Source: Candidatus Scalindua sp.
GTDB taxonomy: Bacteria; Planctomycetota; Brocadiia; Brocadiales; Scalinduaceae
Assembly: GCA_021777035.1 (NCBI GenBank)
Contig: JAIQZR010000124.1
Location: 1-41,400, forward strand
DNA length: 41,400 nucleotides
Direction of reading: 5' to 3'
Position 1 is the first letter of the stretch. Each line of letters begins with the position of its first letter. Made by a program: the position numbers and the translations under genes. Positions 1 through 38,806 of this stretch are shown one piece after another. The notes under the pieces were generated by a model. It ran no database searches. It saw only the letters and a program-made list of their open reading frames with translations, and was not told the origin of the DNA.

Positions 1-237
1 AATATTTGTTTCCCTTAACTCCTTTAAAATAATTTTCATCTTATGAATAAAATCCTTCTGCGACTCAGAACTTTGGACTTCACCATAATTTAACGCTGGA
101 GATGTTCCACATCTAATCAATTGGCTGGCAATATGATTGCCAGCTCTGGTTTTGGGCAATTCCTCAACGAGCTCCATGATTCTTATAGCAAATTCTATTA
201 ATCTATCTTCTAAATCATACTTTTTTGCTGAATTCAT
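1..237 (-). CDS. Four-helix-bundle protein (23S rRNA intervening-sequence family), 5' part only
   Basis: The reverse strand is open from an ATG at 237 to the window edge (79 codons, no stop), so the 3' end lies outside the window. The translation begins MNSAKKYDLEDRLIEFAIRI and continues with a helix carrying LPKTRAGNHIASQLIRCGTS and later SPALNYGEVQSSES. This is the usual N-terminal half of the small (about 120 residue) four-helix-bundle proteins named after 23S rRNA intervening sequences; their function is not established. Its upstream region and first 11 or so codons recur three more times in the window without the rest of the gene. It lies downstream of cytochrome b on the same strand, but the intervening leader repeat suggests an independent insertion rather than an operon partner. 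Confidence 0.8.
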   Translation of the reverse strand, partial: MNSAKKYDLEDRLIEFAIRIMELVEELPKTRAGNHIASQLIRCGTSPALNYGEVQSSESQKDFIHKMKIILKELRETNI

Positions 238-400
238 TATTCGAAGTTCAATGTTCTTTATTCGACATTTTCAATTATAATTTAAAATTGTCTTTCAAGC
301 CGAACTTAGAAAAAAAGCCTCTTCCCAGCAGACTACAATCAAGTCTCAATTCGAGATTTCCCAATCATGAATATCGAACATCGAATAATGAATTTAGAAA
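205..400 (-). repeat. Four-helix-gene leader repeat, copy 1 (with intact gene start)
   Basis: This stretch holds the first codons and the leader of the four-helix-bundle gene. It contains AT-rich words such as TTCGAAGTTCAATGTTC and ATGAATATCGAACATCGAAT that recur at about 33,620-33,815, 38,240-38,442 and 38,590-38,806. The closest relative is the 38,590-38,806 copy in reverse complement, which shares even the middle section (TTAAAATT, CCGAACTTAGAAAAAA, CAATCAAGTCT). Confidence 0.75.
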
Positions 401-408
401 TGACTCCC

Positions 409-1206
409 CTACAGCGGCCCCGAAACCCCTCCTGCCCTTCTAATTCTCCAAAAGTGGAAACCCATTAAACCGGCTATTCCAAGAGGGAGAGCTATTGCAT
501 GCAAAAGATAAAATCTTAATAGCGTGGGCTGCCCAACTGCAGCACCACCCACCAAGATAGAATTCACGTCTTTTCCCGATTCTAACAATGCAAATGGTCC
601 CTTCGCCCCTAATAACGGAGCGTTCTCACCCATGCTGCATCCTATAGTAACTCCCCAGTAAGCCAGTTGATCCCACGGAAGCAAATATCCTGTAAAACTT
701 GAAAGCATTGTCAATACCAGCAGAATTACCCCTACAATCCAGTTTAATTCCCTTGGAGGCTTGTATGCCCCTGTCAAAAACACACGTAACATGTGAAGAG
801 ACACAAACATCACCATTAAGTGCGCAGTCCACCTATGCATATTCCTAATTAAAACACCAAATGGCACAATGTATCGAAAGTCCTCAACATTCGCATAAGC
901 CTTGTTGACATCCGGGTTATAATAAATCATCAGAAACGCACCAGTGCATGAGAGCAATGCAAAGAAAAAAACACTCAGGCCTCCCAGACAAAATGTGTAC
1001 AGTATTATCCGCTTACCGCCCACACTCATATTGTACGGATGCAACTGCATGATCTTGGCAATGCCACGCATTAAGCTATTTATTGGGGAAAAAGGTTTAA
1101 ATTCACCAAACAAAAGATCTCCAAATATGGCCTTCCATACCTGCGTACCCTTTGCTAAATCTTTTATATTTTTACCTTTTCCATCTTTATTCTTTTTTTC
1201 TTCCAT
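409..1206 (-). CDS. Cytochrome b, b6-type N-terminal domain (Rieske/cytochrome b complex)
   Basis: Membrane diheme cytochrome b subunit that would oxidise quinol together with the Rieske protein encoded just upstream. Counting from the ATG at 1206 (265 residues), four heme-ligand histidines are visible at 124, 138, 236 and 251. The 14/15 spacing is that of cytochrome b6 rather than mitochondrial-type bc1 cytochrome b. The motifs RNMHRWTAHLMV, GYLLPWDQLAYWG and LLHAIALPLG are typical. The protein ends GGVSGPL, where b6-type proteins of this sort normally end; the C-terminal subunit (subunit IV-like) is not in the window. A TTG six bases upstream (1212) is an alternative start; AGGAG lies 5 nt from the TTG and 11 nt from the ATG. 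About 92 nt separate it from the Rieske stop, so co-transcription is likely. Confidence 0.9.
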   Translation of the reverse strand: MEEKKNKDGKGKNIKDLAKGTQVWKAIFGDLLFGEFKPFSPINSLMRGIAKIMQLHPYNMSVGGKRIILYTFCLGGLSVFFFALLSCTGAFLMIYYNPDVNKAYANVEDFRYIVPFGVLIRNMHRWTAHLMVMFVSLHMLRVFLTGAYKPPRELNWIVGVILLVLTMLSSFTGYLLPWDQLAYWGVTIGCSMGENAPLLGAKGPFALLESGKDVNSILVGGAAVGQPTLLRFYLLHAIALPLGIAGLMGFHFWRIRRAGGVSGPL

Positions 1207-1298
1207 AACCAAGCCAGCTCCTTATCAAAGTAACGGAACAACCTAACCGGATGATACTGAATCAGTACGAAATTTATATTTCAAAACCGTACATCGCT

Positions 1299-1868
1299 TC
1301 AAAGAGGCAGTACATAATCTACGCCTACTATCTTCTCCTTATCAACAATCAGGCGCCCGTCATCACTTACAGTAACCAGCGCACGCGATAAAGGTTTTGG
1401 TGGAGGCCCAGCAAAGTTTACCCCATTTTTGTAAAATTGCCCACCATGACACGGACACTTGAATATTTGTTCTTTCTCAAGCCATCGAGGCTGACACGAC
1501 AAGTGTGTACACACCGCGATAAGCGCATACAAACCCCTCTCCTCCCTGATAATCCATACCTTGCGTGTTTCTATGAGTGTTACAGAGCCCAAAGGATAAT
1601 CTTCAGGCCTGCCTGCTTTAAAAATACTTGAAGGCTCATACGATACCCTGGGTATCAAGTACCGAACTACGGAAAAACTCCACATAGAGACAAGGCCCCA
1701 GAATGACAGCCATGCCCCCCAGAAAAGGCATCTTCTTGTGATCGTCTTTGGATGGTCGAGGAGAGCACCTGGCTCGTAAGACTCGCTAATCTCGGTTGAT
1801 TCTTTATCCCCTATGGTATTCTTTAAGTATTTTGCGTCTATCTTATCGGCCATATCTGAAATTGCCAT
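1299..1868 (-). CDS. Rieske [2Fe-2S] iron-sulfur protein
   Basis: One transmembrane anchor (about residues 48-74, after an unusually long, about 45-residue, N-terminal tail) precedes a Rieske fold. The cluster-binding loops CTHLSC (120-125) and CPCHGG (138-143) supply Cys/His ligands C120, H122, C138 and H141, with C125 and C140 placed for the stabilising disulfide. The sequence GPPPKPLSRA after the second loop is the typical proline loop. It transfers electrons from quinol at cytochrome b to a periplasmic or paryphoplasmic acceptor. It is the first gene of a pair with cytochrome b. No strong ribosome binding site is visible; a TTG one codon upstream is an alternative start. A shared palindromic element lies 304 nt upstream. 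Confidence 0.93.
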   Translation of the reverse strand: MAISDMADKIDAKYLKNTIGDKESTEISESYEPGALLDHPKTITRRCLFWGAWLSFWGLVSMWSFSVVRYLIPRVSYEPSSIFKAGRPEDYPLGSVTLIETRKVWIIREERGLYALIAVCTHLSCQPRWLEKEQIFKCPCHGGQFYKNGVNFAGPPPKPLSRALVTVSDDGRLIVDKEKIVGVDYVLPL

Positions 1869-2171
1869 CAACGTTAAAAAAGGAAGCTAACCTGCTTCTA
1901 CATACCAGGAAACACGTGAAAAACTGGAGATGCGTTAAAAAAAAACATAAAGGTAAAAATAATTTGCCTTGGCAGCTAATTTACTTATCAATACAATATA
2001 TTTTTGTAACACTTAAAAATCGATTCGACTTAAAGAATGGAGTGAGTACCGATGATTAATCGCAAAAAGCGTTCCACTCAAATACGAAACCGCCATAAAA
2101 GCGTAAACTCTTATCGCAAAGAAAGTTGCAGAATCACATTCTTAAGAAAACAACCCCGACCACTACCTCTA

Positions 2172-2239
2172 CACACTCTTTTTTTTGACATCCTGTCAAT
2201 GCATATTGTGATCCAACAAAATCAATGACATTATGTCAA
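2172..2239 (-). promoter_or_regulatory. Twin-palindrome element, copy 1 (upstream of Rieske/cytochrome b)
   Basis: Two inverted repeats of the form TGACA-N3-TGTCA lie at 2185-2199 (TTGACA-TCC-TGTCAA) and 2225-2239 (ATGACA-TTA-TGTCAA), with centres exactly 40 bp apart. Read on the minus strand the inner palindrome is followed by eight A and then, two bases on, GTGTG. The same arrangement without an indel occurs at 12,533-12,600 upstream of nirS; by my count 48 of 68 bases match. The half-sites resemble Crp/Fnr-type (FNR, DNR/NnrR) sites, but the three-base centre is not the usual four. The element could act on the minus-strand Rieske gene or on the divergent cupredoxin promoter, whose predicted start is about 100 bp from the second palindrome. 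Confidence 0.65.
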
Positions 2240-2296
2240 TCCCTAAATTGTTTACCGAAGAGAAGTGTCGTTCTAAACATTGTAACAATAAAACAC

Positions 2297-2325
2297 TTGA
2301 AATCAAAACATTGAGGTTGTAGAAT
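2297..2325 (+). promoter_or_regulatory. Sigma-70-type promoter of the cupredoxin gene
   Basis: TTGAAA at 2297-2302 and TAGAAT at 2320-2325 are separated by exactly 17 bp and lie about 70 bp before the cupredoxin start. This is sequence-match evidence only. Confidence 0.45.
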
Positions 2326-2396
2326 CTACTGCAATCTTCTAAAAATCCGTTTTAGAGACCCTTGGAATTGTGACACCAAATCAAAGGAGAAGGTGT

Positions 2397-2828
2397 ATGA
2401 TTAAAAAAACCGTAATTCTATTGACTATAGTTGCCCTATTAACAATATTCTCTCTTTATGGATGTGGTATTGCTAATGAAGCGAATAGCAATTCAGACAG
2501 AAACCCCTCAACCACTCAATCAGCTGGAACAACAACAACACACACTGTCGAAATGACTGGTGATTACGAGTTTGCACCCTCTTCATTAACGATTAAGCAG
2601 GGAGATAGTGTAAAATGGATTGTAACCGGCGCAAAGGCTCACGAAGTAGCAAGTGGGACAGTAATCGAAGGGGAAGATGGTAAGGAGGGCGTTCCTGATG
2701 GTCTCTGGAAAACTGACAAAATGGCTTCGGGAAGCTTTACCTACACCTTTGACTCTACCGGTACATTTCCTTACTACTGTGATGCTCATCTAGACCAGGG
2801 GATGATAGGGTCTATTACGGTTGAATAA
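2397..2828 (+). CDS. Lipid-anchored cupredoxin (plastocyanin/azurin-like type 1 copper protein)
   Basis: Small periplasmic electron carrier of 143 residues. The N-terminus MIKKTVILLTIVALLTIFSL ends in a lipobox with Cys23 as the probable lipidated residue, followed by a Ser/Thr/Asn-rich linker to about residue 50. The copper site is visible as His82 (AHEVAS) and the C-terminal cluster Cys128-x2-His131-x4-Met136 in YYCDAHLDQGM, the standard Cys-His-His-Met set. The start is fixed by AAAGGAGAA six bases before the ATG at 2397; a longer reading from 2370 has no such site. It stands alone and divergent to the Rieske/cytochrome b pair, with the twin-palindrome element between them. A role as electron carrier between the Rieske/cytochrome b complex and a reductase such as NirS is plausible but inferred. 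Confidence 0.92.
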   Translation: MIKKTVILLTIVALLTIFSLYGCGIANEANSNSDRNPSTTQSAGTTTTHTVEMTGDYEFAPSSLTIKQGDSVKWIVTGAKAHEVASGTVIEGEDGKEGVPDGLWKTDKMASGSFTYTFDSTGTFPYYCDAHLDQGMIGSITVE

Positions 2829-3093
2829 TTTCCTTAAGAAGACTGTAAATATATAATTTGCATCGCCGGCGTAGCGAGTATAGCACCCTTAGATTTACTA
2901 CGTTATTGATCAACACCCACAAGCATCTTGATTAAATAAGGGTATTAGGAAAATGTTAGCACGCTAATACCTTAAAACCTATTAGAAGTATTGGCCTCTT
3001 TTTCCATAACTATTTTAGCTCATCTAAGATTAAGCCAACCCCATGACACTGGCCTCGCAAGGCAATATTATGTTACATAGCAAACTCACGGCA

Positions 3094-3927
3094 ATGAACA
3101 TTGTTAAGATAGCAATGAGCGCACTGCTCATTCTTTCTTGTATATCGTTAATCGGATGTAGCAGAACGGAGGATGTAGAAACAGATAAAGTGGTCACGCT
3201 AATTCAATGGCTTAATGATAGTGACAGCAGCGTCAGGCAGATGGCGGCTGAGCAGCTGGGGGAGAGAAAAGAAATCCGCGCAGTTAAGCCCCTGATTGCT
3301 GCATTGAAAGATAATAATAGAAGTGTTCGGTGGAGTGCAGCAGAGGCACTAGGGGAGATAAAGGACACCAGCGCAGTTGGGCCTCTGATTACCGCCCTGA
3401 AGGACAATGACAGCAGTGTTCGGTGGAGTGCAACCGGAGCGTTGGGGGAGATAGGCGCACCAGCAGTGGAATCATTGGTTGATGCACTGAAAGATAGCGA
3501 CAGTAGAATCCGGCAGTATGCAGCGGCCGCGCTTGGGAAAATAAAGGATACACGCGCTGTTCAACCATTGATTACCACCTTGAAGGACACCGACAGCAGC
3601 ACCCGGGACGCTGCCGCAAGAGCGCTTGGAAAAATAAAGGATGCACGCGCTGTTGAACCCTTAATCGCTGCACTAAAGGACGATGACAGTGGCGTCCGAC
3701 GGGATGCAGCAGGAGCACTGGGAGAGATAGAGGATACCCGTGCAGTTCAACCATTAATTGATGCACTGAAGGACAACAACAGTACTGTCCAATGGTGTGC
3801 GGTAGAGGCGTTGGGAAAGATAAAGGATGCCCGAGCAGTTGAGCACTTAATCGATACACTGGAAGATGATGATAGAGGTGTCTGGAGAAAGGCAGAAGAG
3901 GCACTTAAAGAAATAGAGGGAAAATGA
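3094..3927 (+). CDS. HEAT-repeat lipoprotein (PBS-lyase type repeats)
   Basis: After a lipoprotein signal (MNIVKIAMSALLILSC up to the lipobox ending at the Cys of LIGC), the protein consists of eight consecutive 30-31 residue HEAT/PBS-lyase repeats with the consensus VxPLIxALKDxDSxVRxxAAxALGxIKDxRA. The underlying DNA shows the same roughly 93-bp periodicity from about 3,190 to 3,920. Such repeats form a curved helical scaffold for protein-protein contacts; some relatives bind tetrapyrrole-protein complexes. The start is chosen for the signal peptide; in-frame ATGs at 3043 and 3070 exist and no clear ribosome binding site decides. The stop overlaps the next start by ATGA, so it is translationally coupled to the c-type heme lipoprotein. 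Confidence 0.85.
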   Translation: MNIVKIAMSALLILSCISLIGCSRTEDVETDKVVTLIQWLNDSDSSVRQMAAEQLGERKEIRAVKPLIAALKDNNRSVRWSAAEALGEIKDTSAVGPLITALKDNDSSVRWSATGALGEIGAPAVESLVDALKDSDSRIRQYAAAALGKIKDTRAVQPLITTLKDTDSSTRDAAARALGKIKDARAVEPLIAALKDDDSGVRRDAAGALGEIEDTRAVQPLIDALKDNNSTVQWCAVEALGKIKDARAVEHLIDTLEDDDRGVWRKAEEALKEIEGK

Positions 3928-4409
3928 AATATTCATTCATAATTTTTGTCGCAATCATATGTCTACCCATAGTCACTGCTTCCTGCAAGAAGCATGAGAA
4001 AGTAAAGATAGAAAGACCTGGAGAGGAACAGATACTTACACCAGACCATGGAGGCTTGGCAGAATCCATGAAGAAGGCATCCATATCAATGAGGAGATTG
4101 TCAAGAGCGGTAGAATACAGTGACTGGGTACAGATGGATTTATTAACAAAAGAACTCAAAGAGAATATAGGCTTCAATTGCGTTGAATTATATATGATTG
4201 AGAATAATGATATTCCACACGAGTTCACGGTACTAAGCAGTAAATTCAACAATGCATTAAATAAATTAATGTTATGCAGTAAAGATCAAGACACCGGTAA
4301 TGCGAATGTAGAATTTATCAATCTGGCAAAGTCGTGTGACGCATGCCATGAAAATTTTAACAAAGACGCAAAAACAAAATTAGACTTTACAGACGAAGGG
4401 CAAAAGTAG
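3924..4409 (+). CDS. Cytochrome c'-like lipoprotein with C-terminal CXXCH
   Basis: 161-residue exported protein with a signal peptide and lipobox (TASC, Cys21). It is mostly helical, with one heme-attachment motif CDACH at 138-142 near the C-terminus in the context FINLAKSCDACHENF. A CXXCH in the last helix of a four-helix bundle is the signature of the cytochrome c' / cytochrome c-556 class. Candidate axial ligands include the methionines in the first helix (for example Met49 or Met56). It overlaps the HEAT-repeat gene by 4 bp (ATGA), which suggests the HEAT protein docks or stabilises it. Cytochromes c' often bind NO; with nirS nearby, NO handling is an attractive but unproven role. Confidence 0.75.
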   Translation: MKYSFIIFVAIICLPIVTASCKKHEKVKIERPGEEQILTPDHGGLAESMKKASISMRRLSRAVEYSDWVQMDLLTKELKENIGFNCVELYMIENNDIPHEFTVLSSKFNNALNKLMLCSKDQDTGNANVEFINLAKSCDACHENFNKDAKTKLDFTDEGQK

Positions 4410-4432
4410 ACACATCAAAACCGGCTTGATTT

Positions 4433-6391
4433 TTATGCATCAGCAGCTTCCGTTTTTCCAGTCTCAATTCCGGGAATTTCCGGTTTCGCCTTCCCCTGAG
4501 TACTGAATTGCATCTCAAATAGTTTTTTATACAGCCCTCCATATGCAAGAAGTTCATGGTGGATGCCTGTTTCGACAATTCGGCCCTTATCGAGCACCAC
4601 GATTAAATCCGCGTGCAATATGGTTGACAACCGATGAGCAATAACGAATGTAGTGCGGTCTTTCACCAACCTGTAGATGGCGTTCTGAATGAGTTGTTCT
4701 GTCTCTGTGTCCACAGATGAAGTAGCTTCGTCCAGGATGAGGATGCGTGGATTGGCAAGAATGGCACGGGCAATAGCAATGCGCTGTTTCTGGCCTCCGG
4801 AGAGTTTTACACCACGTTCTCCTATTACAGAGTTATATCCATTCGGTAATATTGCAATAAAATCATGTGCATTCGCAGCAACAGCGGCACTTTTAATCTC
4901 TTTATCAGACGCATCAGATCGGGCATAAGCAATATTTGACTTTATGGTATCGTTGAAAAGAAAAGAATCCTGGAGCACCATGGCCATTTGCTTACGCAGG
5001 GATTGGAGCTTGATATGTTTGATATCATAACCATCAATACAAATATCCCCCTTTGTGGGATCATAAAATCTGGGAATCAATTTTGTAAGAGTTGTCTTAC
5101 CACTACCACTGGGACCAACCAGCGCAATCATCTGGCCCGGTCGAGCTATTATGTTGATGTCATGGAGGACTTCAGTGCCCTGGTTATACATAAAGTTAAC
5201 ATGCCTGAATTCCACGATTCCATGTACCGGCGGCAAATCAACAGCATCATGGTTATCTTTTAAATCGGATGGTGTATCAAGTATCTCAAAGATTCGTTCG
5301 GTTGAAACAATAGCGCGTTGTACCTGGTTGTAAAAACGGGTCAAACCGGTAATAGGGCCGTACATCATCTGGAGATAAGGGAAGAATATCACAAATGTAC
5401 CAACAGAAAGTTGCCCCTGCAACACCTTATATCCGCCCAGGCAGATAACAACTACCGCCCCCATTTCAGTGATAAAGTCGATAACAGGTCGTAAAGTAGA
5501 AGCAAGTCGTAATATCTGAATATTCAAGTTGTAGCTTTCGTAGTTCTTCTCCTGAAAACGTTCCAACTCCTCAGCTTCTTTTGCAAATCCGGAAATAACC
5601 TTAATACCTGAAATATTATCCTGAATCAGGGAATTAAGTTCTCCTGTTTTGTCCCTCAAAGAACGAAAGGCCTTTCTTATTCTTTTGCCAAAGTTATAAG
5701 TACAAATGGAGATAAATGGACAGATTAACAGTGCTATAACGGAAAGCTGCCAGTCAAGCCTAATACAAAAAAAGATAATCCAGCCAAATTTGAACATATC
5801 GGTAATAAATGTAATAATCGGGCCAACAATTGCCTGCTCGATTGAATTAACGTCATTCATGAGACGACTCATAATAGTGCCGGTTTTATTATTTTCAAAA
5901 TAGGAGAGAGGGAGTTGCTGAATGTGGCCATAAAGCTGATTTCGCAAATCATAAGTGAGCCTTTGGCCCAATCCCGCAGAAATGAAACCATGAACCAGCA
6001 TAATACTGCCGCTGACGGCATTCATAACAATAAAACTCACGGCAAGAAAGATCAGCGTAACAATGGTAGCGTTATAACCTTTAAACCAATTGGAATGGAC
6101 ATACTGAGAGGCGGTTAATAAAGGTTTTGATAGAGGAATAGCGCTCTTCTGTTCGTAGGCATCTGTTTTGTCCAGTGCTTTTGCATCATTCCGATCAAGT
6201 TGGGTATTTTTCAAATACTTGTCGGCTATCTTGATCTCATCCACCGCGATACCTAATATCTGTATAGGCAAAACGGCTATGTATGTACTAAGTGCCGCAA
6301 GTATGAGAATAATTACAGACTTGTGCCAGTACGGTTTTAAATAACCCAACAATCTGATATACGTGCCTCTTGAAAGGATGACTTTTTTCAT
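4433..6391 (-). CDS. ABC exporter, fused permease and ATPase (MsbA-type half transporter)
   Basis: 652 residues: six-helix ABC transmembrane domain (about 20-365) and a C-terminal nucleotide-binding domain. The latter shows Walker A GPSGSGKTT (426-434), Q-loop LQDSF (473-477), signature LSGGQKQR (530-537), Walker B LILDEATS (551-558) and the H-loop His586 in IAHRLST. It forms a homodimer or heterodimer in the inner membrane and exports lipids, peptides or drugs; the substrate cannot be read from the sequence. An insertion of about 50 polar residues (55-105) sits in the first extracytoplasmic loop. It converges with the c'-type cytochrome gene, only 23 bp apart, so shared function with that gene is not implied. 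Confidence 0.95.
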   Translation of the reverse strand: MKKVILSRGTYIRLLGYLKPYWHKSVIILILAALSTYIAVLPIQILGIAVDEIKIADKYLKNTQLDRNDAKALDKTDAYEQKSAIPLSKPLLTASQYVHSNWFKGYNATIVTLIFLAVSFIVMNAVSGSIMLVHGFISAGLGQRLTYDLRNQLYGHIQQLPLSYFENNKTGTIMSRLMNDVNSIEQAIVGPIITFITDMFKFGWIIFFCIRLDWQLSVIALLICPFISICTYNFGKRIRKAFRSLRDKTGELNSLIQDNISGIKVISGFAKEAEELERFQEKNYESYNLNIQILRLASTLRPVIDFITEMGAVVVICLGGYKVLQGQLSVGTFVIFFPYLQMMYGPITGLTRFYNQVQRAIVSTERIFEILDTPSDLKDNHDAVDLPPVHGIVEFRHVNFMYNQGTEVLHDINIIARPGQMIALVGPSGSGKTTLTKLIPRFYDPTKGDICIDGYDIKHIKLQSLRKQMAMVLQDSFLFNDTIKSNIAYARSDASDKEIKSAAVAANAHDFIAILPNGYNSVIGERGVKLSGGQKQRIAIARAILANPRILILDEATSSVDTETEQLIQNAIYRLVKDRTTFVIAHRLSTILHADLIVVLDKGRIVETGIHHELLAYGGLYKKLFEMQFSTQGKAKPEIPGIETGKTEAADA

Positions 6392-6585
6392 AGGTAATAT
6401 TATAAAAAATGCTTCTACCTGGTATTCAGATACTTATTAATACCGGATTCCCAATAAAGCTTGTCCTCGCATGCTTTAAGCGGGGAGAATTCGGGAATTA
6501 CAGATAGCGACGTTATATTGGGTATGTGGACATGTCCTAGTCTCTGACTTACGATATTTCAGGATACAATAAGTACTGTGTACAA

Positions 6586-6604
6586 GGGCACGAGCATCGT
6601 GCCC
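6586..6604. repeat. Short hairpin (GGGCACGA / TCGTGCCC)
   Basis: A perfect 8-bp stem with loop GCA lies downstream of the last radical SAM gene. No T-run follows on the minus strand, so it is a poor terminator candidate; it resembles the short dispersed hairpins seen elsewhere in the window. The rest of 6,392-6,650 holds no gene I can support. Confidence 0.4.
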
Positions 6605-6650
6605 CTACGGTTTAGGACCGTTAACATGTCTATGTTGCAGTGATTTCCTG

Positions 6651-7823
6651 TCATGTGTTGTTTGCGATTGGAACATGCACTGTAATCTCCTCCTCGGTCA
6701 GGTAGCATGCGGGGTCTGCCCCAAATGGGTCACCACACATTTCCTCTGCCCTGACTCCGCATCCCCTGCAAAGATGCTTATGAATACATCTCCCGCACCT
6801 GCCCTTAAGATAGTGCGTTTTATCTTTCATCCTGACGAGAATCTCATTTTCCTCATCAAAACAGATGTCGCTGAGTTTCCGTTCCCGAATATTGCCTATT
6901 GTCCGGCCCTTCCAATAGGGACAAAGATGCACATTGCCCCGGTAGTCCACGTTTACAATTCTATCCCCTGCCGGACACCCTCCCTGCCTGGCAAGGAGTT
7001 TTTCCATCTCGACAGCGAGCTCCGGCTCACGTTCTGTAACACGTTGCAGAAGATAAACGCCGTCGTCATATAACTGTTCGGTAACAACCTCCATCTCCGA
7101 ATTTTTCATTGCATAATCAATGAGGAAGTCTATGATTATACGTCTCTCTTTTTTCACGGTCTTCCAGTCTCTATCTCCAAAGTGCTGGCAAACTGCAAAT
7201 CTTTTCAGTCCCGTATTTTCGATAGCCTCTATTATAAACGGCATCTGAGATAGATTGAAGTCTCCAATCGTAATCCTCACACCACATCCAACCCCTGCGT
7301 CTCTGAGGTACTCCACGGCAGGCAAGGCTTTCCCCAGCCCTGCAGTAACGTCCATAGCACCACCCATCTGAGAAAACCCGTCCATATCAATTCCCACATA
7401 GGAGATACCTGACTCTGCGATCTCCTTTGCGGTTTGCTCTGTTATAAGGGCAGCGTTGCTGGATAAAATAATCCTCAGCCCTTTATTGTGAGCATGACCT
7501 GCAAGTGTGAAAAAGTCATCCCTGGTTAATGGTTCTCCCCCGTAAACAGAAACCATAGGAACCTTTATTGACGCCATGTGATCAATAAACTCTGAAGCCT
7601 CCTGCGTGGTTAACTCATCGCCATCTGCCTCAAAAGCGGAGCCGAGGTGGCACATATCGCAGGAGAAGTTACACTTTCGAGTAATATTCCAGGCAACCAT
7701 GGGGGCTTTGACATTTGCGTATCTGATGAGATGTTTTGGCACCTCATCAGCCCTTTTGTTGTGGTGTTTTTTTACATCGAGGGCAGTCTCCCTTACCTTG
7801 AGCAATCTGCTGAAGTTAATCAT
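6651..7823 (-). CDS. Radical SAM/SPASM protein, NirJ/AhbC-like paralogue 1 (divergent)
   Basis: 390 residues. The radical SAM cluster motif is C51-x3-C55-x2-C58 (CNFSCDMC), followed by His where the other two copies have Tyr. The GGEP motif (YGGEPLTRDD) binds SAM. The C-terminal SPASM-like region has the Cys-rich pattern CGRCIHKHLCRGCG and ends DPFGADPACYLTEEE, a hallmark of the NirJ/AhbC family, whose members process siroheme-derived tetrapyrroles on the way to heme d1 or heme. It departs from the family in the middle: the substrate-side motifs usually read as SLDG..HDSFRG and Y(A/G)GRG are altered (DMDGFSQMGG and HFGDRD). It overlaps the upstream paralogue by 8 bp, third of three tandem copies after nirS. 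The family is clear; the exact reaction is not. Confidence 0.85.
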   Translation of the reverse strand: MINFSRLLKVRETALDVKKHHNKRADEVPKHLIRYANVKAPMVAWNITRKCNFSCDMCHLGSAFEADGDELTTQEASEFIDHMASIKVPMVSVYGGEPLTRDDFFTLAGHAHNKGLRIILSSNAALITEQTAKEIAESGISYVGIDMDGFSQMGGAMDVTAGLGKALPAVEYLRDAGVGCGVRITIGDFNLSQMPFIIEAIENTGLKRFAVCQHFGDRDWKTVKKERRIIIDFLIDYAMKNSEMEVVTEQLYDDGVYLLQRVTEREPELAVEMEKLLARQGGCPAGDRIVNVDYRGNVHLCPYWKGRTIGNIRERKLSDICFDEENEILVRMKDKTHYLKGRCGRCIHKHLCRGCGVRAEEMCGDPFGADPACYLTEEEITVHVPIANNT

Positions 7824-8976
7824 GCAGGGCCTCCTGCACTGGCTTAGCGATTTCCTTCTCGGTTAAATAGCAGCTGGGATCAGGGGCGCCAAAATCATCA
7901 TAAACCGCCATGGCTCTGGCCCTTGAGCCGCCTCTACAGATTTCCAGAAATCTGCAATTTGCACACTTACCACGGAACAGGCTTTCTCTGTTTCTCAGCT
8001 TCCACAGGAACTCATTATCACTATTCCAAATATCATTAAAGCTTTTCTCCCTAATGTTCCCCAGTTCTGTTTTCAGGTGCTGACTGGCGTAAACATTACC
8101 TACCTCGTCAATGTATGCAAGTTTTTCCCCGCAACCTTCACCGCCATTACGGAGAAAGTGTTCGTACACCGCCTCGGCTTTTTGTGGGTTTTCCTTCAGA
8201 ACTTGCATGTAAATGTAGGCGGCATCAGCGTAGTTTCCAACGGTGAGCACTTCAAGATCGTGATTGTGGCTGTTTATCTCAACGGTCTTCTTAAACAGAC
8301 TATTCACGGCTTTCCGTCGATCATCTGGTGACAGATCATTATTCATAAGATCTCTCCCTCGACCGGCATACTCAAGATGATAAACACAGAGACGGTGAAA
8401 ACCTTCCTTAACCAAGAGTTCCATAATACCTGAAAGTTCATGATAGTTGTGCCGTGTCATAGTAAACCTCAGTCCTGTCTTTATCCCGGCATCGCAGAGA
8501 TTCCGCATCCCCTGAAGCGCATTGCTGTATGCATCTACGCTGCCCCTGAAGTAGTTATTCGTCTCAGCCAGACCATCCAGACTGACGCCAACGTATCCAA
8601 AACCAGCATCTGCCGCCTTTGCAGCTATCTCCGGGGTAACTGTAGTACCATTGGAAGAGACTATGACCATCAAACCTATCTCCCTGGCATACCGCCCCAA
8701 CTCGAAAACATCCGCCCGTAAAAAAGGCTCGCCACCAGAGAGTATCAGGAATGGGGAACCGCAGTCCTTCAGTTCATCAAGCATCTTTTTTGCTTCATCA
8801 GTAGAGAGTTCTCCTTCAGAGACTGTGTTGCCACCGGAATAACAGTGCATACAATTTAGATTGCACCTCTTCGTCGTGCACCATACTACAACCGGTGCAG
8901 ATCCCTCACTGCGCTTATGGCGAAGTGCCTTGTTTTCAAGTTTCTCCGATACCAGTATCCTGCTAACTTCTATCAT
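7816..8976 (-). CDS. Radical SAM/SPASM protein, NirJ/AhbC-like paralogue 2
   Basis: 386 residues with C38-x3-C42-x2-C45 (CNLNCMHCY), SGGEPFLRADVF for SAM binding, VSLDGLAETNNYFRG and HLEYAGRGRD. These are the canonical NirJ/AhbC motifs, and of the three copies this one has the most NirJ-like C-terminus (GNIREKSFNDIW, CANCRFLEICRGG, PDPSCYLTEKE). NirJ removes propionate groups from a didecarboxysiroheme intermediate in heme d1 synthesis; AhbC acts on related substrates in the siroheme-dependent heme route. It overlaps paralogue 3 by 14 bp and paralogue 1 by 8 bp. The cysteine found just before PYW in copies 1 and 3 is absent here, so the auxiliary-cluster ligation may differ. Confidence 0.88.
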   Translation of the reverse strand: MIEVSRILVSEKLENKALRHKRSEGSAPVVVWCTTKRCNLNCMHCYSGGNTVSEGELSTDEAKKMLDELKDCGSPFLILSGGEPFLRADVFELGRYAREIGLMVIVSSNGTTVTPEIAAKAADAGFGYVGVSLDGLAETNNYFRGSVDAYSNALQGMRNLCDAGIKTGLRFTMTRHNYHELSGIMELLVKEGFHRLCVYHLEYAGRGRDLMNNDLSPDDRRKAVNSLFKKTVEINSHNHDLEVLTVGNYADAAYIYMQVLKENPQKAEAVYEHFLRNGGEGCGEKLAYIDEVGNVYASQHLKTELGNIREKSFNDIWNSDNEFLWKLRNRESLFRGKCANCRFLEICRGGSRARAMAVYDDFGAPDPSCYLTEKEIAKPVQEALHD

Positions 8977-10174
8977 GTAACCTGACCTTTGCCCCGCTAA
9001 TCTCCTCCTCTGTCAGATAGCACGCTGGGTCTTCCCCGAAAGGATCACCACAAGCCACCTCCGCCCTGACCCTACATCCCATGCATAGGTGACTAAGCTT
9101 ACACCTCCCGCACTTGTCCTTAAGATAGCGCGTTTTGTCCCTCATCTTGGCAAGGATCTCATTTTCCTCGTCAAACCAGATGTCGCTGAATTTCTTCTCC
9201 CGAATATTGCCAATTGTTCGACTCTGCCAGTAGGGGCAAAGGTGCACGTCCCCTCGGTTGTCCACGTTCGCAAGCCCGTCTCCTGCCGGACATCCACTCT
9301 GCATGGCAAGGAGTTTTTCCACCTCAGCAGCGCGCTCCGGGTCGTGCTCCGCAACATTTTGCAGCAGATAAATACCGTCAGCATAATTATCAGCCGTGAC
9401 AATATTCATGCCGTTACTCACCTTGGCCTCCTCTATTACGTAGTCCATCACCTCTCTCCTCTGATCGTTGAAGATATCCCAGTCAATAATCTCCTTACCT
9501 CTGCCACCGTATACAAGTTGAAAGAGTGAGAATCTTGGTATTTTCTCGCGTCTGGTTATCTCAAGAACCTTGGACAGCTCATCATAGTTCTGATTTGTAA
9601 TGGCAAACCTTACGCCCGTCCTGACGCCTACCTCCATGAGATACCTCAGCCCCTGAATCGACTTCTCAAAGGCCCCCTTAGCACCCCTGAAACTATCATG
9701 AACTTTCTCAGTACCGTCCAGGCTGACACCTACATAGGCGAAACCCGCATCCTTGATCTTCTTTGCTGTCTCCCTGGTTATAAGGGTGCTGTTGGTCGAT
9801 AGTATGGTTCTAAGCCCCTGCTTCATGGCGTAGACATTAAGTTCATATATATCTTCTCGCAACAGCGGCTCGCCACCAGAAAAAACAAGCATAGGCGATT
9901 TTATTGCCACCAATTCATCGATCATGTTCATCGCTTCCCTGGTCGTAAGGTCACCCATATCTTCCTCTGACCCTGCATCTTCTGGTCCCACTGCGTTAAT
10001 ATAACAATGGGCGCAGCTCAGATTACACTTCCTGGTTACATTCCAAACCACCATAGGAGAAGCTGTCTTGGAGAAGCGAAGCATCCACTTTGGTGTCTTC
10101 TCCTTAACTGCGGAGTACCTTTTTATCTCGTTCAACGTTTCCGTGCTTTGTAAAAGTTTCGTACAATTTATCAT
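8963..10174 (-). CDS. Radical SAM/SPASM protein, NirJ/AhbC-like paralogue 3
   Basis: First radical SAM gene after nirS. C50-x3-C54-x2-C57 (CNLSCAHCY), FSGGEPLLREDIY, VSLDGTEKVHDSFRG and LVYGGRGKE are all present; the C-terminal part has GCPAGDGLANVDNRGDVH, CGRCKLSHLCMGC and EDPACYLTEEE. A short acidic insertion (about 62-74) follows the cluster motif. The start at 10174 (MINCTKLL) is preferred because copies 1 and 2 also begin MI-x2-S/T-x-L; an ATG 12 nt upstream (10186) is possible and no strong ribosome binding site decides. The C-terminal half is closely similar to copy 1, suggesting these two arose by a later duplication. Likely acts in heme d1 (or heme) synthesis. Confidence 0.88.
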   Translation of the reverse strand: MINCTKLLQSTETLNEIKRYSAVKEKTPKWMLRFSKTASPMVVWNVTRKCNLSCAHCYINAVGPEDAGSEEDMGDLTTREAMNMIDELVAIKSPMLVFSGGEPLLREDIYELNVYAMKQGLRTILSTNSTLITRETAKKIKDAGFAYVGVSLDGTEKVHDSFRGAKGAFEKSIQGLRYLMEVGVRTGVRFAITNQNYDELSKVLEITRREKIPRFSLFQLVYGGRGKEIIDWDIFNDQRREVMDYVIEEAKVSNGMNIVTADNYADGIYLLQNVAEHDPERAAEVEKLLAMQSGCPAGDGLANVDNRGDVHLCPYWQSRTIGNIREKKFSDIWFDEENEILAKMRDKTRYLKDKCGRCKLSHLCMGCRVRAEVACGDPFGEDPACYLTEEEISGAKVRLHDRS

Positions 10175-10217
10175 TCGGCACCGCATCTTTCAGTCGGAAA
10201 GAAAGAAAAAATAAAAC

Positions 10218-10248
10218 AGGCACGGACAAACTTTGTTTGTCCGTGCCT
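10218..10248 (-). terminator. Rho-independent-type hairpin between nirS and the radical SAM genes
   Basis: A perfect 14-bp stem (AGGCACGGACAAAC / GTTTGTCCGTGCCT) with a 3-nt loop is followed on the minus strand by a T-rich run (GTTTTATTTTTTC). It lies 34 nt beyond the nirS stop and 44 nt before the first radical SAM start, so it would end or attenuate the nirS message. Its inner 11 bp recur as a hairpin at 24,014-24,038, so it may be a repeat recruited as a terminator. Confidence 0.65.
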
Positions 10249-10282
10249 ACCTGTAATCTACCTAAATAATCCTGAAAACCTG

Positions 10283-11977
10283 TTAATACACGTCGTGTAC
10301 CGTGTTATATACATTGAACTTACCAGTAGGCGTGAGAAGGTTTGGTATCCTTGCTTTCTCTGTAAGGGTCTTGTCATCAAAAATCACTATCTCGCCTGCC
10401 TGGCCCTTGTCAGCATCTCCCAAATTGCCCCAGATGCTTATCCAGACTTCGTCACCTGCTTTATTGTACTCCATATGCACAGCCTTGCCATAGTCTGCGA
10501 CTTTCAAAGTCTTGAATATCCCGGCGTCCATATTTTCCTTGTCATATACAACAACACTTGTCCGATCTTTCGTTTTCTTACCAAGGGGAGAGTCAAGCCA
10601 GACCCATTTGCTATTCGGATGGGTCTTAATAAACAGGTTGCCGGAGCTAAGCGCATTTATTTTCCTGACCACTTTCCAGGCACTATCCGGGTGGTTCACC
10701 GGATCCGTGCCTATCACTGACACCACACTATCGCCAATATGTCCTGAGGCCCAGACCGGTCCGTACTCCGGATCGACCCAGTTTGCCCCTCTTCCAGGAT
10801 GCGGTTTAATGCCACCGGTATCGACAAGGGCAACAAGTTTCTTTTCCTTAGCATCTATTACGGCAATCTTGTTCCTCGCGTTTGCTGCCACAAGGAAGTA
10901 GCGTTTGGTTGAATCCCAGCCTCCGTCATGCAAGAAGCGTTCGGCCTCAATCATTTTAATTGCCGGATTGTCTGGGTCAGAATAATCCACGAGCCATACC
11001 TGCCCTGTTTCTTTAATGCTCAAGACCCATTCCGGTGCGAAGTGCGACGCTACAATGCTGGCTACACGCGGCTCAGGGTGAAACTCTTCTGTGTCGTAAG
11101 TAAATCCCAGAGTACTCACTATTTTAATCGGCTCAAGAGTGGCGCCATCCAGAATCACAAACTGAGGCGGCCAGTAACCGCCGACTACAGCGTACTTGTC
11201 TTCGAAGCCTTTGAACTTGCTCACATCGACAGATCGCGCGTCAAGAGAGCATCGAATCTCTGCTACTGTGTCAGGCTTTTTCATCCAGAGGTCTATTATT
11301 GTGCACTTGCCATCTCTGCCAATAGAATACACGTATCTTCCAGACATTGACATCCTGACGATATGAACAGCATAACCTGAATCTATAGTACTCACTACCT
11401 CTTTGGTATCGCCATCAATAATCGCTATCTTACCAGCATCGCGTAAAACCACGGCAAACATATTCTCCACATCACGATTATGCTCCGGCTTGGTAGGACG
11501 TTTCTCCGGCGGAATCAACACCTTCCAACTACCCCTGACAGACTTCATATCCCACTGAGGCGGAATAGGAGGTTCGTTCATAACATACTTTGTTAAGAGG
11601 TCTGTCTCTTCGCTGGTAATAGTACCCATTTTCCCCCAGCCTGGCATGCCTCCACCAGTCCCAAACCATATAAAATCTCTGATCTTCTTTATTCCCTTAG
11701 GTATTGTCTTCACGGGTGTCAGATCCGGCCCGGTGGCCCCTTTCCTTAGAACTCCGTGACAGCCTGCGCAACGGTCAAAGTAAATCACCCTGCACTTCTC
11801 GAACTCTTCAGGAGTAAGGGAATACGCTGATGGATCAGCTTCTGGCGTTGCTACTTTTTCCGTTTTAACTTCTGACGATACTACCGGTTTTGACTTAACT
11901 TCCTCATTGGCCGTCGCATAAGTACCACATACCATAAAAGCGACAACTAACATGATTGCAATTACAAATCCTCTCAT
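10283..11977 (-). CDS. nirS: Cytochrome cd1 nitrite reductase
   Basis: 564-residue periplasmic enzyme that reduces nitrite to nitric oxide. A signal peptide (1 to about 23) and a linker are followed by the cytochrome c domain with CAGCH (70-74). The C-terminal eight-bladed propeller binds heme d1; its proximal ligand is His205 in GYAVHIVRMSMSGRY. The two distal catalytic histidines are His350 (RFLHDGGWDS) and His393 (KPHPGRGANW), with the family motif YGPVWASGHIGD just after. The ATG at 11977 has GGAGG 8 nt upstream; a longer reading from 12019 would add a non-signal extension. The gene is preceded by a leader of over 550 nt that carries the twin-palindrome element and is followed by a terminator hairpin and three NirJ/AhbC-like genes. 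NirF, NirN and the NirD/L/G/H proteins are not in the window. Confidence 0.97.
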   Translation of the reverse strand: MRGFVIAIMLVVAFMVCGTYATANEEVKSKPVVSSEVKTEKVATPEADPSAYSLTPEEFEKCRVIYFDRCAGCHGVLRKGATGPDLTPVKTIPKGIKKIRDFIWFGTGGGMPGWGKMGTITSEETDLLTKYVMNEPPIPPQWDMKSVRGSWKVLIPPEKRPTKPEHNRDVENMFAVVLRDAGKIAIIDGDTKEVVSTIDSGYAVHIVRMSMSGRYVYSIGRDGKCTIIDLWMKKPDTVAEIRCSLDARSVDVSKFKGFEDKYAVVGGYWPPQFVILDGATLEPIKIVSTLGFTYDTEEFHPEPRVASIVASHFAPEWVLSIKETGQVWLVDYSDPDNPAIKMIEAERFLHDGGWDSTKRYFLVAANARNKIAVIDAKEKKLVALVDTGGIKPHPGRGANWVDPEYGPVWASGHIGDSVVSVIGTDPVNHPDSAWKVVRKINALSSGNLFIKTHPNSKWVWLDSPLGKKTKDRTSVVVYDKENMDAGIFKTLKVADYGKAVHMEYNKAGDEVWISIWGNLGDADKGQAGEIVIFDDKTLTEKARIPNLLTPTGKFNVYNTVHDVY

Positions 11978-12532
11978 AACTTTTACCTCCAAGAGATTGA
12001 CTTTGATAAAAATATCCACCTTTTAGGACTTGCCTCATCCCCCCCCTTCCATAGTTCTAAAAGTTTCAAAAGAAAATATTTAAAATATAAACACTCATGG
12101 CTTGACTGTCTTCTGTGCAAGCTTATGTTCCTACCTGTAAGCCATCGCTTTGTCTAGCTATGGCTAAAATATCCCCTCCCCCATTGTTCTAAGACAAACT
12201 GCCAACCTTGCTATGCACAAAACCATCAAATATTTTAAACGGACTACCATGAAACAATTTCTCGAAGATAAAATAGCACTTATATTTTGATCTGTAAATT
12301 GATGCTATCCTCCATTTATGCCTTTTTTTTGCTTAATCCTTAAAAGCAAAACCACTTATTTGCGAAATATTTTCTATCTATGACAGTATATTTAAATACC
12401 ATGTCTCTTAAAATCGCGCAAAAGATGTACCACGTGTGAAAAGATAAACATAATAGATGCGACTGCCTAAGTGATTGATTTATATACACATAAATGTTTA
12501 CCCTTTTAGCAAAGCAAGCAGCTTGACACTCG
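11978..12532 (-). other. Long leader/intergenic region upstream of nirS
   Basis: No credible gene is seen here. A C-rich phrase ending in AG/GTTCTAA occurs twice (about 12,037-12,060 and 12,170-12,191). A 10-bp hairpin with one mismatch (12,140-12,149 with 12,156-12,165) lies between them. If transcription starts near the twin-palindrome element, the nirS mRNA would have a structured leader of about 500 nt. No riboswitch family is recognised. Confidence 0.4.
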
Positions 12533-12600
12533 CACACAATTTTTTTTGACAATTTGTCAATTTGCGTGGTGGTTCAAGGAGATGAAGGACATTCTGTCAG
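12533..12600 (-). promoter_or_regulatory. Twin-palindrome element, copy 2 (upstream of nirS)
   Basis: Palindromes TTGACA-ATT-TGTCAA (12,546-12,560) and a weaker GGACA-TTC-TGTCA type (12,586-12,600) have centres 40 bp apart, with the same eight-base A-tract and GTGTG on the minus-strand side as at 2,172-2,239. It ends 556 nt before the nirS start. A further half-site (TGTCAA at 12,679-12,684) lies 84 bp beyond the second centre. The remaining DNA to 12,805 shows no supportable gene. Confidence 0.65.
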
Positions 12601-23542: not shown

Positions 23543-23743
23543 GAATCGGTTAGTTATTGTAAAATCGACAGGAATTCGATGGATATACACAGCGTAGGGT
23601 TCAAGAAAAAAATGGAAAATCGGTGTAAAAACAGACCTTTTATTTTCTCAATCATGACAATATTTTATTATTGTGTATCATTCCCAATTTTATATAATAC
23701 GCTGATTATGGACGTCTGATAAGCTTTGAATTTCCTATACACC

Positions 23744-23928
23744 AAATTAAACCTTCGGCATAAAGATACAGGTAGGAGCCAACTCCCGTTGGCGACCGTA
23801 CCGAACAGTACATTCGCCAGCCCGACAATGATTCTGGCGGGGGCGGGTTGGCGACCGTGATTCGCATGCTATGGTAGGTGATATTCGCTCGCCGTCGAGA
23901 GACGGCTCATACCAAACTTTGAATTTCC
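23744..23928 (+). repeat. GGAGCCAACTCC dispersed repeat, copy A
   Basis: Begins AAATTAAACCTTCGGCATAA, contains GTAGGAGCCAACTCC, GTACCGAACAGTAC and GGTTGGCGACCG, and ends with the small hairpin GCCGTC-GAGA-GACGGC and ACCAAACTTTGAA. Related copies are at 33,887-34,030, 34,240-34,399 and, reversed and partial, 38,095-38,183. Confidence 0.75.
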
Positions 23929-33136: not shown

Positions 33137-33342
33137 AATCTAAAAAGAAGGACAAGCTTTGAGAGTAAGACTCCATAGAGTCACTGATTAGTCCCCCAAC
33201 AAATTAAGCCTTCGGCAATTTTTTTTGCCTTCATGATGTCTGTTAAAAAATGTCGGGCAACCTGCCCGACTTCGCTATTCAGGCGGGGAAACCCGACCTA
33301 CGAGTAAAAAAATATAATATTTTGTAGGGCGGGTTTCTTACC

Positions 33343-33422
33343 CGACTGTACCTATTCGGGCTGGTTGCCCGACTACTTTGAATTTCCTATGCATCAATTC
33401 ACTTTAACGCAGAGGCGCTGAG
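33343..33422 (+). repeat. Outer inverted repeat, left arm (80 bp)
   Basis: Its reverse complement matches 38,831-38,910 at 74 of 80 positions by my count. It includes GAATTTCCTATGCATCAATT and the ACGCAGAGGCGCTGAG phrase. Confidence 0.8.
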
Positions 33423-33602
33423 AACACAGAGGGTAAAAAACTTTTATCTTTTAATTCATTTTGTATTTTCTTTGCGACCTCAGCGCCTCTGCGTTAAACC
33501 TTCTTTGTCCCCTTAGCGTTCCGGCTTTGCTTGAGAACTTCTTTGTTCCTCACCTGCCCGACTTCGTCGTTCTGGCGGGCGCCAAGGCGCAAAGAGCGCA
33601 AA

Positions 33603-33927
33603 GAAAATACAAAAACAAATTATCTTCTAAATCATACTTTTTTGCTGAATTCATTATTCGAAGTTCAATGTTCTTTATTCGACATTTTCTTTTGAACCAT
33701 ACTTAGAAAAAACCTCTTTAAAAAAACCTCTTTAAGTGAGCCCTTACTTACTTATTATTCTATATTTCTCAATCATGAATATCGAACATCGAATAATGAA
33801 TAACGAATTCTAAATTCGATTCCATTATTCAATTATTATTGTATTCCCTATGCATATATTTAAAACATTGAAAGACTATACCTCACGTTAAGCCTTCGGC
33901 ATAAACATACAGGTAGGAGCCAACTCC
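33603..33927 (+). repeat. Inner inverted repeat, left arm, including four-helix-gene leader copy 2
   Basis: The reverse complement matches 38,145-38,454 with about ten substitutions, a 1-nt indel and a 15-bp tandem duplication (a second AACCTCTTTAAAAAA) present only here. It contains the four-helix-gene leader (start codon remnant at 33,654 on the minus strand), whose coding part is replaced after about 11 codons by other repeat DNA. Confidence 0.85.
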
Positions 33928-34030
33928 CGCCCGCCCGTACCGAACAGTACGTTCGGGCGGGTTGGCGACCGAATTATTGCGGTTGAACGCTTACGCTCGC
34001 CGTCGGGAGACGGCTCCTACCAAACTTTGA
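33887..34030 (+). repeat. GGAGCCAACTCC dispersed repeat, copy B
   Basis: Same order of words as copy A (CCTTCGGCATAA, GGAGCCAACTCC, CCGAACAGTACGTTCGG, TTGGCGACCG, GCCGTCGGGAGACGGC, CCAAACTTTGAA), with the middle shortened. Confidence 0.75.
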
Positions 34031-34239
34031 ACCTCAAAAACCAAGTAAATTGTGATTGAAATTGTCCTAAGCCCTTTAAAATAGAGCAAACTCATCCGAT
34101 GGAGTCTCTTTTTCTCCTTGACTTTGGCACTTATTATCACTACTATCATTACTATGCCTCTATGCCTCTATGCCACAAGATAGCGTCTCAACCGAACAAT
34201 TTGATATCTCAACAATGATGTATACATTTTCCAGAAGCA

Positions 34240-34399
34240 CCAAATTAAGCCTTCGGCATAAATATGCAGATAGGAGCCAACTCCTGCCCGCCCGTACCGA
34301 ACAGTACGTTCGGGCGGGTTGGCGACCGTAATTCACATGCCATGGTGGGTGATATTCACTCGTCCGCCTTGGCGGACTCCTACCAAACTTTGAAATTCC
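34240..34399 (+). repeat. GGAGCCAACTCC dispersed repeat, copy C
   Basis: Direct repeat of copy B about 350 bp further on, with the end hairpin changed to TCCGCC-TTGG-CGGA. It shares GTGATATTCACTCG-type words with copy A. Confidence 0.75.
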
Positions 34400-37944: not shown

Positions 37945-38094
37945 TAGCGTCCGGTTAGGTTTTTGCAAGTACGGTTTTTTTATATCCAAACCGTCAGCAG
38001 AGACGTAGGGCGAGGTCATGCCAGAGGCAGATTCGCCTATGGAGTGATTTTAGCCTTGCCATTTATGCACGAAAGCGATCCTATCAGCCCCCGC

Positions 38095-38183
38095 CAGAAT
38101 GATTGTCGGGCTGGCGAACGTACTGTTCGATATGGTCGCCAACAGGAGTTGGCTCCTACCTGCATATTTGTGACGAAGGCTTA
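38095..38183 (-). repeat. GGAGCCAACTCC dispersed repeat, copy D (reversed, partial)
   Basis: In reverse complement it reads CCTTCG, CAGGTAGGAGCCAACTCC, TTGGCGACC, CGAACAGTACGTTCGCCAGC and CCCGACAATCATTCTGGCGG, closest to copy A. It lacks the terminal ACCAAACTTTGAA part. Confidence 0.7.
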
Positions 38184-38454
38184 ACGTGATGTATAGTCTT
38201 TCAATGTTTTAAATATATGCATAGGGAATACAATAATAATTGAATAATGGAATTGGATTTAGAATTCGTTATTCATTATTCGATGTTCGATATTCATGAT
38301 TGAGAAATATAGAATAATAAGTAAGTAAGGGCTCCCTTAAAGAGGTTTTTTCTAAGTATGGTTCAAAAGAAAATGTCGAATAAAGAACATTGAACTTCGA
38401 ATAATGAATTCAGCAAAAAAGTATGATTTAGGAGATAATTTTTTTTGTATTTTC
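38145..38454 (-). repeat. Inner inverted repeat, right arm, including four-helix-gene leader copy 3
   Basis: Partner of 33,603-33,927 in inverted orientation, about 97% identical over 310 bp by my reading. The remnant start codon is at 38,404 (MNSAKKYDLGDN), after which the frame runs into unrelated repeat DNA and stops. Confidence 0.85.
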
Positions 38455-38589
38455 TTTGCGACCTCTGCGCCTTGGCGTGAGGGAAAAAAGAAGTTCTCAC
38501 CTGCCCGAATAGGTACAGGCGGGTAAGAAACCCGCCCTGCAAAATAATGTTTTAAATATATGCATAGGGAATCCAATAATAATTGAATA

Positions 38590-38806
38590 ATGGAATCGAA
38601 TTTAGAATTCGTTATTCATTATTCGGTGTTCGATATTCATGATTTAGGGATTTCAAATTAAGACTTGATTGTCGCCTGCCGGGAAGATGCTTTTTTCTAA
38701 GTTCGGTTTGAAAGAGAATTTTAAAATTATAAAAGAGAATGTCGAATAAAGAACGTCGAACTTCGAATAATGAATTCAGCAAAAGAGTGTGATTTAGAAG
38801 ATAACT
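38590..38806 (+). repeat. Four-helix-gene leader repeat, copy 4
   Basis: Direct repeat of the leader in 38,240-38,442 but with the longer middle section of copy 1. The remnant start is at 38,770 (MNSAKECDLEDN), followed after the same codon by TTTTGTATTTTCTCTGC-type repeat DNA. Confidence 0.75.

Follow-up and report, generated by a model that had tools for sequence, protein, structure and literature searches.

Paired palindromes upstream of nirS and a cytochrome bc1-type operon of 'Candidatus Scalindua' as probable sigma-54 enhancers of nitrite-handling genes

The window analysed here is a stretch of 41,400 nucleotides from 'Candidatus Scalindua' sp. (assembly GCA_021777035.1, contig JAIQZR010000124.1). 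It carries on its minus strand a Rieske/cytochrome b gene pair and nirS, and upstream of each lies a 68-base-pair (bp) element (2,172-2,239 and 12,533-12,600), the subject of this study. The original prediction read the two as copies of one twin-palindrome element, and we confirmed this: 48 of the 68 positions are identical, with no gap, and each copy holds two 13-bp palindromes of the form TGACA-N3-TGTCA (Table 1). The best relatives of the NirS protein include 'Candidatus Scalindua' contigs (76-85% identity). The three NirJ-like genes behind nirS match NirJ1-type NCBIfam models, below the curated cut-offs, and probably form one operon with it.

Table 1. Palindromes, predicted promoter boxes and genes at the two elements, in positions of the window
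Feature	Position	Strand	Sequence	Remark
Outer (promoter-distal) palindrome, Rieske/cytochrome b enhancer (predicted)	2226..2238		TGACATTATGTCA	conserved in relatives
Inner (promoter-proximal) palindrome, Rieske/cytochrome b enhancer (predicted)	2186..2198		TGACATCCTGTCA	40 bp from outer
Outer palindrome, nirS enhancer (predicted)	12587..12599		GGACATTCTGTCA	one mismatch
Inner palindrome, nirS enhancer (predicted)	12547..12559		TGACAATTTGTCA	
Predicted sigma-54 -24/-12 box, Rieske/cytochrome b	2061..2076	-	TGGAACGCTTTTTGCG	109 bp past inner palindrome
Predicted sigma-54 -24/-12 box, nirS	12417..12432	-	TGGTACATCTTTTGCG	114 bp past inner palindrome
Rieske [2Fe-2S] protein gene	1299..1871	-		first predicted target; Pfam PF00355
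Cytochrome b gene	409..1212	-		same predicted operon as Rieske; Pfam PF00033
nirS, cytochrome cd1 nitrite reductase	10283..12019	-		predicted target; Pfam PF02239, E 9.9e-136
Three NirJ-like radical-SAM genes behind nirS	6651..10186 (8963-10186, 7816-8976, 6651-7823)	-		NCBIfam
Cupredoxin (plastocyanin/azurin family) gene, divergent	2370..2828	+		Pfam PF00127; not supported as target

We searched for the palindromes in the genome to which the window belongs (G000; 4,163,003 bases in 204 contigs) and in a comparison set of 59 genomes, made up of this genome and relatives within its order, with 17 genomes in its own GTDB family (f1) and 42 in other families. The reversed pattern served as a control. 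Pairs at 40 bp with up to three mismatches occur at three places in the whole 4.16-Mb genome (control 0), which bears out a recurrence beyond chance. The third place, G000:C62:53245, has a response-regulator gene on one side and nxrC on the other. With up to two mismatches, 40-bp pairs were found in 13 of the 59 genomes, all of them in f1 (control 0); with up to three, they were found in 13 of the 17 f1 genomes, the control giving three matches when counted once for both strands (one in G004, two in G014). Pairs at 41 bp number 17, spread over 13 of the 59 genomes: f1 accounts for 16 (12 genomes), and the sole place outside f1 (G027) has no good promoter box. When the spacing of perfect pairs was left free between 27 and 57 bp, centre to centre, the 59 genomes gave 12 places (control 0): ten at 40 bp, one at 41 bp and one at 52 bp, the last in another family (G041) and again without a good box. 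The spacing, first taken as fixed at 40 bp, is 40-42 bp across the family, and the claim that two dimer-type sites lie nearly on one helical face is supported.

Alignment of the upstream regions of orthologous genes revealed two kinds of conserved block, the palindromes and a box separated from the inner palindrome by about 100-125 bp, and the intervening DNA varies. Most orthologous promoters do not conserve the A-tract and GTGTG, GTGTG being present in L100, and we rejected both as working parts. The same alignments bear on a rival reading in which the two elements are copies of a dispersed repeat, or alike by chance, and have no part in regulation. Dispersed repeats do occur in the window, but conservation at the elements is confined to palindromes and box, relatives carry the elements at the same orthologous genes, and the searches include several with control counts of 0 or 1; we rejected the dispersed repeat and leave next to no probability to this explanation as a whole.

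The conserved block reads GTGGCAC-N5-TTGC before nirS of relatives and before nxr, and is of the TGGAAC- or TGGTAY-type before the Rieske gene. It has the form of the -24/-12 box, for which a passage of PMC4482717 quotes the consensus TGGCACG-N4-TTGCW. Both window boxes, TGGAACGCTTTTTGCG and TGGTACATCTTTTGCG, have two mismatches to TGGCAC-N5-TTGCW. For the searches we required GG and GC and allowed up to three other mismatches, a test that flanks of shuffled letters pass at a rate of 0.46% per side. Among pairs gathered by their palindromes alone, regardless of promoters (42 pairs, 26 at 40 bp and 16 at 41 bp), all 26 distinct 40-bp pairs of f1 with up to two mismatches have a box on one side, 102-125 bp beyond the inner palindrome, and each of the 16 pairs of f1 spaced at 41 bp has one 99-133 bp away, on one side, towards the target. 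In a wider set spaced at 40-42 bp, 63 of 64 distinct pairs have a box at 99-133 bp on one side and none at that distance on the other. This count includes 21 box-bearing 42-bp pairs, of which 20 came from a search whose pattern already contained the box and so do not count as independent. One palindrome plus a box was matched 74 times in f1 (17 genomes, control 1) and six times in the 42 genomes of other families (control 1). The box alone is not rare in the window (seven with one mismatch, 4.4 expected), and the weight of the argument therefore lies on its coupling to the palindromes. Sigma-54 activator sites typically lie about 100-200 bp upstream of the box, and the distances of the inner palindromes fit this range.

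Perfect single palindromes number ten in G000 and four in the reversed control. Five of the ten fall in units with a box; the remaining five (C34, C87, C106, C118, C184) have no box within 60-230 bp and are about as many as chance would give. Two of these lone palindromes, at G000:C106:20348 and G000:C184:4106 (L116, L117), each lie between two divergent genes, one for a protein resembling a Cache-domain sensor and one for a protein of 211 residues without a Pfam match. The two loci are paralogous copies, and neither palindrome has a sigma-54 box at the usual distance.

The coupling also bears on the idea that the palindromes are operators of a nitrite or nitric oxide (NO) regulator of the CRP/FNR type (FNR, DNR, NNR) at a sigma-70 promoter. 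The TTGAC...GTCAA half-sites recall DNR boxes, and regulators of that family classically act on genes for nitrite reductases. CRP/FNR sites follow the symmetry TTGAY-N4-RTCAA, with TGA and TCA 6 bp apart; the palindromes have the form TTGAC-N5-GTCAA, which sets the half-sites one base further apart than in such sites (TGA-N7-TCA). A scan of the window for FNR/DNR-type boxes showed no enrichment (9 found, 8.5 expected) and none at the elements, and a sigma-54-type box is coupled to all 42 independently gathered pairs. The resemblance to FNR/DNR sites noted in the original prediction is not supported, and we consider a regulator of this type very improbable.

We conclude that each 68-bp element is very probably the upstream enhancer of a sigma-54 promoter, serving an NtrC-type activator of nitrite-handling genes. 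The conclusion draws on what can be read directly from the sequence: paired sites, boxes, their coupling, orientation and conservation, target genes, rpoN and the domains of a candidate regulator. The rpoN gene of G000 was identified at G000:C60 (PF04552, E 2.6e-59). The sigma-54 mechanism, and the box about 110 bp closer to the gene, are additions to the earlier reading. Its view that the elements point towards the minus-strand respiratory genes is upheld; the boxes lie on that side. On the side of the divergent cupredoxin gene there is no sigma-54-type box at 95-135 bp, and we rejected this gene as a target of the same enhancer, the only box there having three mismatches and lying at 220 bp.

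The genome encodes five such units, before the bc1-type operon, nirS, nxrC-nxrB, a FocA-type transporter gene and an operon without assigned role. The products of nxrB and nxrC, behind the unit on C62, match the B and C subunits in the solved structure 7b04 of nitrite oxidoreductase (NXR), at E 5e-207 and 5e-95. The unit on C116 (41 bp) precedes genes for a formate/nitrite (FocA-type) transporter and an HPP membrane protein, and that on C110 (41 bp) a small gene group including an MlaC-type gene. A sixth match to the pattern, on the opposite strand at C116 and with a poor box, is counted as chance. The original prediction had named many copies scattered without relation to respiratory genes as evidence against itself, and this check did not refute it: box-bearing pairs of this genome precede bc1, nirS, nxr, the nitrite/formate transporter and the one operon without assigned role.

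Similar targets recur in relatives, whose genes were identified by Pfam or PDB in some cases and in others by eye from agreement of the N-termini. The unit precedes nxr genes on the same contig in 11 f1 genomes, at 40 bp in G000, G001, G002, G004, G005, G008, G010, G012 and G013 and at 41 bp in G009 and G016. In G014 (41 bp) and G007 (42 bp) a unit stands behind the regulator gene on contigs without nxrB. Behind the unit, a Rieske gene can be seen in six genomes (G000, G004, G007, G008, G010, G012), the contig of G011 showing the cupredoxin side alone, and a transporter gene in seven (G000, G004, G008, G009, G010, G011, G016). Other units stand before a SLAC1-type channel gene (G001, G013) and before additional bc1 operons: one in G013 and G014, and a third bc1-type operon, spaced at 42 bp, in six genomes whose genes can be seen. 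Still others precede a c-type cytochrome of 950 residues (four genomes) and, in G014, genes of unassigned kind (C10, C180, C246). A 70-residue piece of a family of 184/185-residue proteins gave no Pfam match. In G002 and G009, single-palindrome matches precede genes for a two-domain cytochrome c and an octahaem protein. The octahaem protein of G009 matches 6h5l, 'similar to hydroxylamine oxidoreductase' (E 1.5e-225), an HAOr-type nitrite reductase, and we take the G009 protein for the same. NirS is present in 11 of the 17 f1 genomes, in 12 copies.

The third pair of G000 places a candidate activator next to the sites. The response-regulator gene linked to nxr (G000:C62:51744-53183) encodes receiver, Sigma54_activat and HTH_8 (Fis-type) domains with a GAFTGA loop. 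Directly before it lies a kinase gene with a PilS-like membrane domain, HisKA and HATPase, and a PAS match just below cut-off. In eight genomes with the whole regulator gene on the contig, 57-142 bp separate its end from the pair upstream of nxr; in G013 a fragment of it lies at the contig end beside the nxr pair. Orthologs at 76-91% were identified in 14 f1 relatives, so that 15 of the 17 f1 genomes have the gene. Among the matches listed, the only other close ortholog is in G018 (60%), a genome with no pair and no site-plus-box match, and the rest reach at most 48%. Based on this linkage and co-distribution, we consider it likely that the nxr-linked response regulator binds the palindromes. 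A less probable alternative, which we regard as unlikely, is that the elements are sigma-54 enhancers bound by another regulator of the NtrC class. At least 11 proteins encoded in the genome match this class at E<=1e-90, and G015, with no nxrB or NirS match of its own, carries the nxr-linked type with no site-plus-box match; in G015 and G016 the gene sits away from nxr. Against another binder stand the closeness of the regulator gene to the nxr pair, the near confinement of its close orthologs (among those listed) to the pair-bearing family, and a DNA-binding helix that is nearly invariant within the family, in a comparison that covered the nxr-linked regulator alone.

The points just given in favour of another binder, like those that follow, count against the reading as sigma-54 enhancers served by the nxr-linked regulator. 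The sole boxless pair of the 64 is a two-mismatch 42-bp place at C118 in G000. Weak extra boxes with three mismatches lie at other distances: two 40-bp pairs have one on their far side, 220 and 231 bp away, one 40-bp pair has one on its near side at 23 bp, and at C116 one lies on the far side at 68 bp. G003 (82% complete) has site-plus-box matches, and no close ortholog of the regulator was found in it. The original prediction also held that absence of the element before orthologous genes in close relatives would speak against it, and here the outcome is divided. A full unit is kept before nirS in G000, G004, G006, G008 and G012, the nirS of G011 has inner palindrome and box with the contig ending just past them, and the unit of G010 is degenerate; the element is absent before the nirS genes of G001, G003, G009 (both copies) and G014. 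By eye, the nirS upstream regions of G001, G003 and G009 contain a sigma-70-like promoter of the form TTGACA...TATA. In G000 the bc1-type operon at C34 has a lone perfect palindrome without a sigma-54 box and, downstream, a sigma-70-like TTGACA...TAAAAT (by eye), and relatives keep the 42-bp unit there. These promoter differences count against a fixed regulon, and they suggest that the regulon has been rewired.

We also observed that the sigma-70-like -35 reads TTGACATTA in L195, L196, L197 and L199 (nirS upstream regions of G009, G003 and G001) and resembles half of the activator palindrome. One may have turned into the other.

We propose the following mechanism, in which the steps beyond DNA pattern, target genes and domain content are drawn from the general biology of the NtrC class. 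An enhancer-binding response regulator of the NtrC family would occupy the two 13-bp palindromes as two dimers; a spacing of 40-42 bp (about four helical turns) places the palindromes nearly on one face of the DNA. The dimers would assemble into an AAA+ oligomer and contact, by DNA looping, RNA polymerase-sigma-54 at the -24/-12 box about 100-130 bp on, and ATP hydrolysis would then open the promoter. The membrane histidine kinase whose gene directly precedes the regulator gene would drive the regulator, presumably in a sensing role; candidate triggers are nitrite, NO or the membrane redox state. Binding, the choice of regulator, the signal and the sign (activation) are what we infer here. The predicted regulon covers the nitrite branch point, with nirS, bc1, nxrCB and the FocA-type transporter, to which relatives may add an HAO (hydroxylamine oxidoreductase)-like nitrite reductase and further bc1 operons. 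The proposal of a dedicated paired-dimer regulator of nitrite respiration was largely right; its echo of FNR/DNR, the fixed 40 bp and the role of the A-tract did not hold.

The proposed system resembles known NtrC-family systems (NtrC, ZraR, AtoC, NorR) in its regulator with receiver, AAA+ and Fis-type HTH, its paired upstream palindromes and its downstream -24/-12 box. It differs in that the nxr-linked regulator scores below the NCBIfam cut-offs of all named equivalogs in the 25 matches listed (AtoC comes nearest, 490.5 against 714 bits), and in that the site sequence, spacing and target set were not met in the literature passages compared. In Nitrospira, according to passages of PMC6606698, sigma-54-dependent regulator genes are likewise linked to nxr genes, and regulation of nxr was suggested; that case belongs to another phylum, and those passages offer neighbourhood and expression only, with no binding sites or wider regulon.

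For Kuenenia, passages of PMC12485887 describe NirS and HAOr as the two NO-forming nitrite reductases. In K. stuttgartiensis, nirS and haor are reported there to rise 10- and 2.5-fold under nitrite limitation and to fall when NO replaces nitrite. The joint response of both nitrite reductase genes parallels our prediction; those passages name no regulator ('regulat', 0 matches). The paired element was not found in the other families of the order, which we take to include Kuenenia, the places in G027 and G041 being those without a good box. Passages of the S. profunda genome paper report that nirS is highly expressed; in word searches, that paper and a Kuenenia nutrient-limitation paper (PMC7438415) had no occurrence of 'sigma' or 'promoter'. 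Among open-licence articles, judged by title or abstract, we found no regulator, binding site, sigma-54 promoters or regulon for anammox nitrite genes. The enhancer kind known from the NtrC class is not new, but its site, its regulon and its place in anammox appear to be.

Several further features were noticed. Long leaders of about 400 bases each are predicted between box and start codon of nirS (window ~12020-12405) and nxrC (L113 ~8440-8880). We rejected a known RNA element there, as the window, L113, L115, L194, L195 and L199 gave no Rfam match at gathering score. After cytochrome b, a small open frame beginning MNSAKKYDLEDRLIEFAIRI occurs in the window (1-237, minus strand) and in G008 (L093 19283-19666, L094 7283-7666); several other relatives have a gene for 279 residues directly behind cytochrome b in its place. 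This frame, whose product may resemble 23S-intervening-sequence (four-helix-bundle) proteins, is perhaps an insertion into the bc1 operon. Adjoining the cupredoxin gene, window 3043-3927 encodes a putative lipoprotein of internal repeats (HEAT-like by eye) that is kept in relatives. Dispersed intergenic repeats lie at window 204-393, 23735-23928, 33311-34399 and 38080-38910, some 100% identical over 69 nucleotides and some inverted with arms of up to 212 nucleotides.

Taken further, the findings lead us to favour, with moderate confidence, one two-component sigma-54 switch as master regulator of nitrite use in the Scalindua family. The switch would govern uptake (FocA and HPP types, perhaps the SLAC1-type channel), reduction (NirS or HAO-like by genome group), oxidation (NXR) and bc1. 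Alternative nitrite reductases and bc1 operons would gain or lose its enhancer-promoter unit, and sigma-70-like promoters would stand wherever the unit is lacking. If true, no transcriptional regulon for the core catabolism of anammox would have been defined before this one. The predicted site, promoter, activator and gene list make the adjustment of anammox to nitrite directly testable, and for the marine anammox Scalindua the switch would be a testable master control of an important step of ocean nitrogen loss. The promoter differences between relatives point to the rewiring of a central metabolic branch.

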